Shown in pieces: positions 2,875-6,366 of a stretch of 36,649 nucleotides of DNA. The translations under genes and the position numbers were made by a program. This DNA is from Gammaproteobacteria bacterium F7 (lineage in GTDB: Bacteria; Pseudomonadota; Gammaproteobacteria; Pseudomonadales; IMCC2047): positions 1-36,649 of the forward strand of contig LUKI01000023.1 of NCBI GenBank assembly GCA_001593685.1, read 5' to 3'. Below the pieces are notes generated by a model that was not told where the DNA came from, ran no database searches, and saw nothing but the letters and a program-made list of their open reading frames with translations. Position 1 is the stretch's first letter; the number at the start of each line of letters is the position of its first letter.

Positions 2875-3198
2875 ATGACATTTATTGTCGCTGAAAACTG
2901 TATCAAGTGTAAGTACACCGACTGTGTTGAAGTTTGCCCGGTTGACTGTTTCTATGAAGGTCCAAACTTTCTGGTGATTCACCCGGATGAGTGTATCGAC
3001 TGTGCACTGTGTGAGCCAGAATGTCCGGCCGAGGCGATCTTCTCAGAGGATGAAATACCTCAAGGCCAAGAGGACTTCCTGGAGATCAATGCCGAACTGG
3101 CTGAAGTTTGGCCCAATATCAGCGAGCGCAAAGATCCTCTGCCAGATGCTGAAGAATGGGATGGCAAGCCAAACAAGCTGGAACTACTAGAACAGTAA
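2875..3198 (+). CDS. fdxA: 7Fe ferredoxin FdxA (Azotobacter FdI type)
   Basis: Small low-potential electron carrier of 107 residues in the cytoplasm. Nine cysteines are visible at 9, 12, 17, 21, 25, 40, 43, 46 and 50. By alignment with Azotobacter ferredoxin I (offset of one), C9, C17 and C50 would hold a [3Fe-4S] cluster and C21, C40, C43 and C46 a [4Fe-4S] cluster. The acidic C-terminal extension (about residues 55-107, with PDAEEWDGK) is typical of the family. A GGAG sequence precedes the ATG. The gene lies beside mutS as in Pseudomonas, but has its own candidate promoter and a strong terminator, so it is probably monocistronic. Its physiological partner cannot be told from the sequence. 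Confidence 0.96.
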
Positions 3199-3338: not shown

Positions 3339-4946
3339 CTATATTTTGAAACGGTCAACCAGACCATTCAAAGCATGGGACAAGGTCACCAGCTCATTAC
3401 TCACCGTTTTACCCTGCTCGGCATCCTGCTCTGAATCAGCGGCAATGTTTCGCAGCTCGATAATATTTTGATTGATGGCGCTGGCCACCGAGTTTTGCTC
3501 GTCAGCGGCAGAGGCCACCTCCGCGTTAAGCTGATTAATCTCAACAATATGATTGGCAATCTCCTCTAGCGCTTGAGCAACACCCTCGACATGTTTGGCC
3601 TGTACATCGGCGCTATGACAGGCCGTATTCATAGCCTCAACACCCAGCTTAGCCTCTTCTTTCAAGCTGTTAATCGCGGTACGGATTTCTTCCGTTGACT
3701 CATGGGTTCTCGTTGCCAACGTGCGCACTTCTGTCGCCACCACTGCAAAACCTCGTCCCGACTCACCGGCGCGTGCAGCTTCCACAGCCGCATTCAATGC
3801 CAGCAGATTAGTTTGGCGGGCAATATCACTGATCATTTCCAAGACATCACCGACCTCATGCGTTTTTTCATCCAGCTTGGAAATCACTTCAGAGGTCCGC
3901 GTAATCTCAGTGCGCAACCCTTGAATGCCGTCAACAGCGCCCATCGCAATTGAATTACCCTGCTCCGCCTTGTCCGCAACCGTTTGCGACACATTGGCAT
4001 TATTCTGCGCATTGTCCTTTACTGCCAGCGAAGAGCTCTCCAGCTTATTAATAGCGTTAGCGACCATATCGGTACCGCCATTTTGCTTGTGAACCGCTTC
4101 ACGCGTGGCATCGGAAATAGAGGCGATTTTTTCTGCCGAGCCATTAATTTTGTGGGTCGTATCAGACACTTCCCGAATACTGTCATGAAATTTTTCTACC
4201 ATGCGATTCAGCGCAGAAGACACCTCATCAATTTCATCATCACCCTCAATATCAAGGCGGCGATTCAAGTCAGTATTTTCCTCGATGTCTTTCATGGTTG
4301 TTGCTAAACGTTTCAAACGGTGAGCCACAACTTTTCTGAAAATTAACGCAATGCCACCAAAACCAATAATGAAAACAACCAGCTGGATTAGCGCGCCACC
4401 CAATAAATCACGATTAACCTTGTTATCGAGGCTTTCCAGAGAATAAGTGACTCGAACAGCCCCTAAAATTTCGCCTTCACTGGATTGGTGACAAGCCAGA
4501 CAATTAATCCCGTGATAATCAGACATGCCGACTAAGGGCTTTACAACCGTTAAATGTCGACCATTCTCGCCATCGGTAAGCTCAAGAACTTCCTCGCCTC
4601 CCATAGCGCGCTGATCAAGCGAGTCTTCAATACCTTGCTCCGGCCCGCCGGCCCCATACAAAGCCTTAACCTTGTCACCTCGAATAATTCGCGCATCAAT
4701 TATTCCTGGAAGTTGCAGGACTTTTTGCCGATAAATATCTCGGTTCGCCGTTGTGCCGGTTAACATCATGGTATTCACAGCATCAAAATAGGACGCAGCG
4801 ACTGTCTCGACCTGCTGAGTAACGACCCCCTCTGTCAACTCGCGTCCACTCATAGCGCTTTGAAAATTAGATATCACAAGGATTACGACACCAATCGCAG
4901 CCAGGGACAAATTGATTTTTGCTCGAATCGTCAGGTTTTTTAGCAT
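3339..4946 (-). CDS. Methyl-accepting chemotaxis protein with a periplasmic haem-c motif
   Basis: Transmembrane chemoreceptor of 535 residues. TM1 is at about 11-27, a periplasmic sensor at about 28-182, TM2 at about 183-203, HAMP at about 204-256, and the cytoplasmic signalling coiled coil at 258-535. The conserved hairpin tip lies around 373-402 ([20 protein letters not shown]). The sensor contains C149-L-A-C152-H153, the CxxCH site for covalent haem c, close to TM2, and the domain is on the side of the membrane where haem c is attached. Haem-c chemoreceptors are known (Geobacter GSU0582 and GSU0935, Desulfovibrio DcrA) and respond to redox or oxygen. No C-terminal CheR-binding pentapeptide is seen (ends DRFKI). 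The gene sits between fdxA and rpoS, which are adjacent in Pseudomonas, and a perfect FNR-type box lies 190 bases upstream. The ligand is inferred, not shown. Confidence 0.93.
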
Positions 4947-5078
4947 TTAAATTAATCTTCTTTTGTGTCTGTAATTAACCGTGCCGTCTCTAGCATTGTA
5001 TCGGCGGAGTATTGAATAAATGCAGCGCTAACAGCCACAACTTGAAGTAAAAAAACGTCGGCCTTTTCCTTGGCACTA

Positions 5079-5084
5079 AATATA
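5079..5084 (-). promoter_or_regulatory. Candidate -10 element for the chemoreceptor gene
   Basis: Reads TATATT on the minus strand, five of six matches to the sigma-70 -10 consensus. No good -35 hexamer is found 16-18 bases upstream, as expected for an activator-dependent promoter. The FNR-type box centre is 61 bases further upstream, which would put it near -70.5, close to a known class I spacing. Confidence 0.3.
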
Positions 5085-5135
5085 GGCGCGAACGCTTAGC
5101 CCTGCTGAACTAATGGCTATACGAATAGGGGATTT

Positions 5136-5149
5136 TTGATCTGCATCAA
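5136..5149. promoter_or_regulatory. Perfect FNR/Anr-type operator
   Basis: TTGAT-CTGC-ATCAA is an exact match to the FNR/Anr consensus TTGATnnnnATCAA. It lies in the non-coding stretch between the rpoS terminator and the chemoreceptor start codon, so the chemoreceptor gene is the only gene it could directly activate here. Function is inferred. A CRP-family relative such as Dnr could use the same site. Confidence 0.65.
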
Positions 5150-5200: not shown

Positions 5201-5227
5201 AAAAAAGGCAGCCTAAGCTGCCTTTTT
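5201..5227 (-). terminator. Rho-independent terminator of rpoS
   Basis: AAAAAAGGCAGC, loop CTAA, GCTGCCTTTTT. On the minus strand this is a 6-bp GC-rich stem followed by six T, 24 bases after the rpoS stop. The rest of the 4947-5250 gap holds the FNR-type box and candidate -10 element, and no gene. Confidence 0.88.
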
Positions 5228-5250: not shown

Positions 5251-6216
5251 CTATTGGCTAAATAACACTTCGCTGCTCAAACCTTCTTTCTCCATCACAG
5301 CGCGCAGACGCTTCAGTGCCTCAACCTGAATCTGACGAACCCGTTCTCGAGTCAGACCAATTTCGCTACCCACCTGCTCTAGTGTGCTCATCTCATAACC
5401 CAGTAAACCAAAACGGCGCGCAATGACCTCACGCTGCTTTTCAGACAGCTCACCCAGCCAGTGAGTCAGATTACCATGCAGGTTATCGTTTTGTAGTAGT
5501 TCGGAAGGATCATCAACATTTTCACCCGTGATGTTTTCAGCCATTGAGCGCTCAGAGTCGCCGCCCATTGGCGCATCAATAGAAGTTACGCGCTCATTCA
5601 GCTTTAACATGCGTTTGACGTTCTCAACCGGACGATCCAGCATTTCAGCGATTTCCTCAGCGCTGGGCTCGTGATCCAGTTTTTGCGTCAATTCGCGTGC
5701 AGCGCGCAGGTAAACGTTAAGCTCTTTAACCACATGTATTGGCAGGCGGATGGTACGCGTTTGGTTCATCAAAGCGCGTTCGATCGTCTGGCGAATCCAC
5801 CAGGTAGCGTAAGTTGAAAAACGGAAACCACGCTCCGGATCGAATTTTTCAACAGCGCGGATTAAACCCAGGTTACCCTCTTCGATTAAATCCAGCAGCG
5901 TTAAACCACGGTTCACATAACGACGGGAAATTTTAACCACTAAACGCAGGTTACTTTCGATCATGCGTTTACGGCCAGCCTCATCACCCTTAAGGGCCAG
6001 ACGCGCGTAGTACACCTCTTCTTCAGCACTCAGCAGTGGCGAAAAACCAATTTCATTAAGATAAAGCTGGGTTGCATCGAGTGATTTTTTACTACTTAAG
6101 TCTTCCTTAATTTGGCCTTCACTGACGAGTTGGTCCTGCTTTTCTTCAACCGTTTCCTCATCAAGCAAAGCATCTTGTGTATCGACCATGGCTTTATCCC
6201 TATTGTTATGAACCAT
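5251..6216 (-). CDS. rpoS: RNA polymerase sigma factor RpoS (sigma-38)
   Basis: Stationary-phase and general stress sigma factor of 321 residues from ATG 6216. Region 1.2 begins near [16 protein letters not shown], region 2 has [17 protein letters not shown] and [15 protein letters not shown], region 3 follows [10 protein letters not shown], and region 4 has the helix-turn-helix [20 protein letters not shown]. Region 1.1 is short and acidic. The start is uncertain: ATG 6216 has GGGG nine bases upstream, ATG 6189 has AGGG eight bases upstream, and a TTG at 6231 is the longest option. It is the last gene of the pcm-DUF368-nlpD-rpoS run and has a 150-base leader after nlpD, where post-transcriptional control could act. 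Confidence 0.97.
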
Positions 6217-6366
6217 TATTATTAACCCCAATGACTCCCGATCTTAATCTCAAAATAATTAGATGTGAACCGGTTTTTCAAAAAAACTATAAATTTTTCA
6301 CTAAGTTACCGGCATCTATTAAAGTAAGTTCAGGTTTCATAACGTCTAATCATCTGGTTCTCAATG
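6217..6366 (-). promoter_or_regulatory. nlpD-rpoS intergenic leader of rpoS
   Basis: AT-rich 150-base stretch with no gene. On the minus strand it contains CCGGT and ACCGG arms about 34 bases apart that could pair, enclosing an A5...T7 segment (T7 is the complement of 6280-6286) followed by the start region. Such U-rich, foldable leaders are typical of rpoS messages controlled by Hfq and small RNAs in enterics. Here this is only suggested by sequence. A TATAGT hexamer is present but lacks a convincing -35 element. Confidence 0.3.

Follow-up and report, generated by a model that had tools for sequence, protein, structure and literature searches.

A perfect FNR/Anr-type box upstream of a putative haem-Cache chemoreceptor gene in Gammaproteobacteria bacterium F7

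We found that a chemoreceptor gene of Gammaproteobacteria bacterium F7 is preceded by a palindrome of the FNR/Anr type, TTGATCTGCATCAA (TTGAT-CTGC-ATCAA, 5136-5149), which agrees with the consensus TTGAT-N4-ATCAA in 10/10 positions. No other perfect match occurs in the window, as we call the whole stretch of 36,649 nt that was analysed, and, judged against the whole draft genome, the box is more than a chance match. We consider it reasonably probable that the receptor is activated by FNR/Anr at low oxygen through this box, from a class I-type promoter, and that its haem-Cache sensor reports nitric oxide (NO) or redox state.

Results

The box and its surroundings

The box is flanked by the terminator of rpoS on one side and by the chemoreceptor gene on the other (Table 1). 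Since rpoS is also encoded on the minus strand and there is no plus-strand gene on the other side of the box, the chemoreceptor is the only evident target. Two parts of the original prediction, the perfect box and the chemoreceptor as its sole downstream target, were thus borne out: the gap holds the rpoS terminator and, beyond it, only the minus-strand receptor. The centre of the box lies 196 bp upstream of the ATG of the receptor gene, which is the greatest distance to a start codon among the plausible box targets of the genome. A regulatory RNA in the gap was rejected, because all Rfam scores were under the gathering cut-off and fell only over the 3' end of rpoS and its terminator, and because the leader folded no better than shuffled sequences (z 0.43).

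Table 1. Features around the box, with positions in the window.
Feature	Position	Strand	Remarks
fdxA-type ferredoxin	2875-3198	plus	neighbour on the other side of the chemoreceptor
Chemoreceptor (MCP), 535 aa	4946-3339	minus	two TM helices, periplasmic haem-Cache-like sensor, HAMP, MCP signalling domain
Candidate sigma28 (FliA) promoter, TGCATTTA-N11-GCCGATAC	within 4980-5025; -10 octamer 5006-4999	minus	start would be at ~4993
TATATT, candidate sigma70 -10	5084-5079	minus	5/6 match, no good -35; inference only
FNR/Anr-type palindrome, TTGAT-N4-ATCAA	5136-5149		minus-strand reading TTGATGCAGATCAA; pattern match
rpoS terminator, palindrome	5202-5227	minus	found by the scan on the plus strand; separates rpoS from the box
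rpoS	5251-6231	minus	neighbour gene, same strand as the chemoreceptor

Perfect boxes in the genome

The window comes from a draft genome of 2.58 Mb in 214 contigs, which is 86% complete and has 14 occurrences of the perfect pattern TTGATN4ATCAA, compared with a single one of the reversed control pattern. Ten of these sites read as non-coding; two of the ten (L008, L009) lie within ORFs called mechanically, but there the true start seems to come only after the box. Assuming that 10-16% of the genome is non-coding, such a distribution has a probability of ~1e-7 to 6e-6. The four boxes inside genes (L001, L003, L006, L013) are as chance matches would give, and their number implies that chance alone would place about 0.5 perfect box in non-coding DNA.

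The other boxes adjoin ccoN, genes for UbiT, OmpW and NnrS, an FKBP/slyD-like gene, a porin gene next to moeA and an Aer-like PAS-MCP gene. The genes ccoN, ompW, ubiT and nnrS are classic FNR/Anr targets, and the UbiT box has U32-peptidase-type genes, UbiU/UbiV-like, on its other side. The FKBP/slyD-like gene also belongs to the core Anr set of Pseudomonas, as does the chemotaxis-related gene PA2867 (PMC6588701).

Conservation in relatives

Both same-family genomes compared (n=2) lack the receptor; in these, rpoS and fdxA are adjacent and no box is present. The rpoS-fdxA gap is ~110 bp in both (L135, L136), while in the window it is filled by the receptor and the box (3339-5149). The two may have been gained together here, or lost together in the two relatives, or the box may have come later. 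Among 73 upstream regions of related CxxCH-sensor genes, two carry a perfect box and three carry at least 9/10 matches, where 1.1 would be expected at this threshold. The two perfect boxes belong to the receptor of the window and to a CxxCH-sensor diguanylate cyclase (GGDEF) gene of another genome (L036, 1492-3357), whose box lies 109 bp from the start. An MCP gene (L029) has two 9/10 sites, 92 and 174 bp from its start.

Hence, the box does not characterise the receptor family: in the scan of orthologous upstream regions that had been proposed as a check, nearly all homologues were without a box. The absence of the box from close relatives had been named as an argument for refutation. It does not apply cleanly here, since both same-family genomes lack the gene itself and the distant homologues mostly lack the box.

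The lacking conservation would fit a box that is a chance match without function, as would the expectation that about one in 20 of the non-coding perfect boxes is accidental. Given the genome-wide enrichment and the typical targets in whose company the other boxes are found, we regard this explanation as highly improbable.

The promoter of the chemoreceptor gene

FNR usually activates from a position near -41.5, or from -61 to -92 relative to the start. A class II position of the box was rejected, as no -10 element is present at the expected spacing. With TATATT as the -10 element, the box would be centred near -70.5, so that the predicted class I-like position near -70 holds as arithmetic. 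The promoter itself is less well founded: a promoter scan of the gap found no sigma70 promoter with a -35 matching TATATT. A class I promoter is therefore a weak candidate, as it depends on one -10-like hexamer, of which 5/6 matches are common, and has no -35.

Alternatively, the receptor might be transcribed from a sigma28 (FliA) promoter near 5025-4999, with the box ~150 bp upstream either having no effect or only modulating expression. The -10 octamer of this candidate, GCCGATAC, agrees in 7/8 positions with the FliA -10 and is identical to that of a strong sigma28-type site before the Aer-like gene. Good FliA sites also precede several homologous receptors and, in the genome of the window, genes reading as flgM and fliC. 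However, the -35 is poor (4/8), the site does not score above shuffles (p 0.235), and genome-wide the FliA pattern with 3 mismatches is at the level of the control (47 vs 46). From a start at ~4993 the box would be near -150, a position too distant for ordinary activation. The Aer-like gene moreover shows that the presence of a FliA site is compatible with that of an FNR box. We consider this alternative unlikely. In the Aer-like gene (L007), the strong site TTTAGTTT-N11-GCCGATAC lies between the gene and its perfect box (1501-1514; G000:C34:5787-5800), placing the box near -58 of the sigma28 start.

Regulators encoded in the genome

The genome encodes an FNR/Anr protein (L014), which matches NF008365 above the cut-off and has the recognition helix ETVSR. 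It keeps all four cluster cysteines (Cys 21, 24, 30 and 123) and would thus be fit to carry an oxygen-sensitive 4Fe-4S cluster. Two more regulators of the CRP/FNR type (L015, 1378-2166; L016, 1136-1972) were found, with ETFSR helices and a Cys-rich C-terminal tail (CxxC...C...C).

On the contig of the porin/moeA box, the C-terminal domain of NarH, the beta chain of nitrate reductase, was confirmed by Pfam, and the ORFs that follow it read as narJ and narI. From these genes, the organism likely respires nitrate. A complete denitrification pathway was rejected for this genome, as the 86% complete draft yielded no protein of the NirS type, and neither of the only two haem-copper oxidases in it was judged to be NorB.

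These findings bear on the possibility that an NO-responsive, DNR-like member of the CRP/FNR family binds the box instead of, or besides, FNR/Anr, in which case NO would both induce the receptor and be sensed by it. Both additional regulators share the ET-x-SR recognition-helix motif of FNR, and the gene of one of them adjoins the boxed porin/moeA genes and the nitrate reductase genes. In P. aeruginosa, the boxes of Anr and Dnr are indistinguishable (PMC6588701). On the other hand, the closest named family of the two proteins is FtrB, and this under the cut-off, and the failure to find NirS and NorB in the draft also argues against a DNR-like regulator. We therefore hold its involvement to be quite unlikely.

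The sensor domain of the receptor

Pfam recognises only the HAMP and MCP signalling domains of the receptor. Its periplasmic part contains the haem motif CLACH (residues 149-153), of which C149, C152 and H153 are invariant in an alignment of 13 sensor domains. The profile built from these 13 sensors covers the whole c-haem sensor domain of GSU0582 (3b47), with the CxxCH motifs aligned (E 9e-4). An AlphaFold model of the sensor, for which three sequences were used and which has a mean pLDDT of 75, matches the GSU0935 sensor (3b42) in Foldseek with E 9e-5 and ~19% identity over the alignment; it also matches other Cache sensors, such as CitA and DcuS. For 3b42 a swapped dimer is known, and the large rmsd of the model to this structure may stem from it.

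PF11845 did not match the sensor of the window and was only weakly matched by two of the 13 relatives. On the basis of profile and model, we describe the sensor as a divergent member of the haem-Cache domains, with GSU0582 and GSU0935 as relatives; it probably carries a c-type haem. Elsewhere in the same genome, an apparently stand-alone protein scores well against PF11845 (Tll0287-like; L037, G000:C4:17274-17705). A recent foreign origin of the receptor gene was rejected on composition, its GC and GC3 resembling those of its neighbours.

Discussion

Our data point to a chemoreceptor whose amount and whose output may be set by different signals. When oxygen falls, FNR/Anr would bind to the box and increase transcription of the receptor gene; the simplest route would be a promoter of the class I type with TATATT as its -10. 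The periplasmic Cache domain would hold one covalently bound c-type haem, and the receptor would most likely report NO or the redox state to the flagellar motor. Oxygen would in this way determine how much receptor is made, and another signal what it reports. Several points speak against this explanation: related receptor genes mostly lack the box, it stands at a distance of 196 bp, the promoter lacks a -35, sigma28 may provide an independent promoter, and the sensor stays below the threshold of PF11845.

The ligand of the haem can be approached through related proteins. A haem-Cache protein fused to a signalling module was shown in vitro to hold NO with a slow off-rate and to form no stable O2 complex (2026 preprint, PMC12889525), and GSU0582 and GSU0935 bind NO tightly (PMC3460858). 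DcrA of Desulfovibrio vulgaris, likewise an MCP with c-type haem, was reported as a sensor of oxygen or redox potential, going by the title of the work as cited in PMC13401364. Since a relative that was tested binds NO and not O2, the Geobacter proteins bind NO and DcrA may respond to redox, we suggest by analogy that the haem of the receptor more probably senses NO or redox than oxygen. The original prediction had proposed oxygen sensing at two levels. On the level of expression, this is supported by the box, the regulator and the set of targets; on the level of the signal, oxygen sensing by the haem is not supported, given a member of the family that binds NO and not O2.

NO is a by-product of nitrate respiration. 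It is tempting to combine these elements in a haem-Cache NO chemoreceptor that is expressed at low oxygen under FNR/Anr or an NO-responsive relative and steers the cell by NO during nitrate respiration; we put this forward as a tentative idea that may well not hold in full.

Chemoreceptors under the control of Anr are known. In P. aeruginosa, ANR governs the transcription of aer (Hong et al. 2004, as cited in PMC13401364). Anr boxes precede the orthologues of aer and of PA2867, described as "related to chemotaxis", in several Pseudomonas species, and PA2867 is up-regulated in anaerobiosis in P. aeruginosa (PMC6588701). As with aer, we would have here a chemoreceptor gene under an FNR-type regulator and a taxis tied to the oxygen supply. 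However, Aer relies for sensing on a FAD-PAS domain in the cytoplasm, whereas the receptor of the window has a periplasmic haem-Cache domain. The PA2867 orthologues resemble it as chemotaxis-related genes with an Anr box, but PA2867 is not known to carry haem.

On the side of the sensor, GSU0582 and GSU0935 of Geobacter sulfurreducens share the periplasmic c-haem MCP architecture, the place of the CxxCH motif and, by Foldseek, the fold, although the identity to GSU0935 is low. We met no description of FNR control of this pair in the literature examined. The sCache_heme family (DUF3365/Tll0287, PF11845) is alike in its Cache fold, in the CxxCH insert before the last strands and in the fused HAMP and signalling modules (PMC12889525), but the protein of the window falls under the Pfam threshold.

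The original prediction knew no precedent for the pairing. Anr-controlled chemoreceptors as such are on record, and the box and the receptor plausibly add a further example; a combination of an FNR box with a c-haem chemoreceptor was not found in our literature search, outside which most subscription papers lie.

If our explanation is correct, the control of taxis by Anr would extend from the flavin-based Aer to receptors with c-type haem. The Aer-like and the haem-Cache receptors, which differ in their chemistry, would then both be brought in at low oxygen under similar boxes. Moreover, the organism would offer a natural setting for testing what periplasmic haem-Cache chemoreceptors sense.
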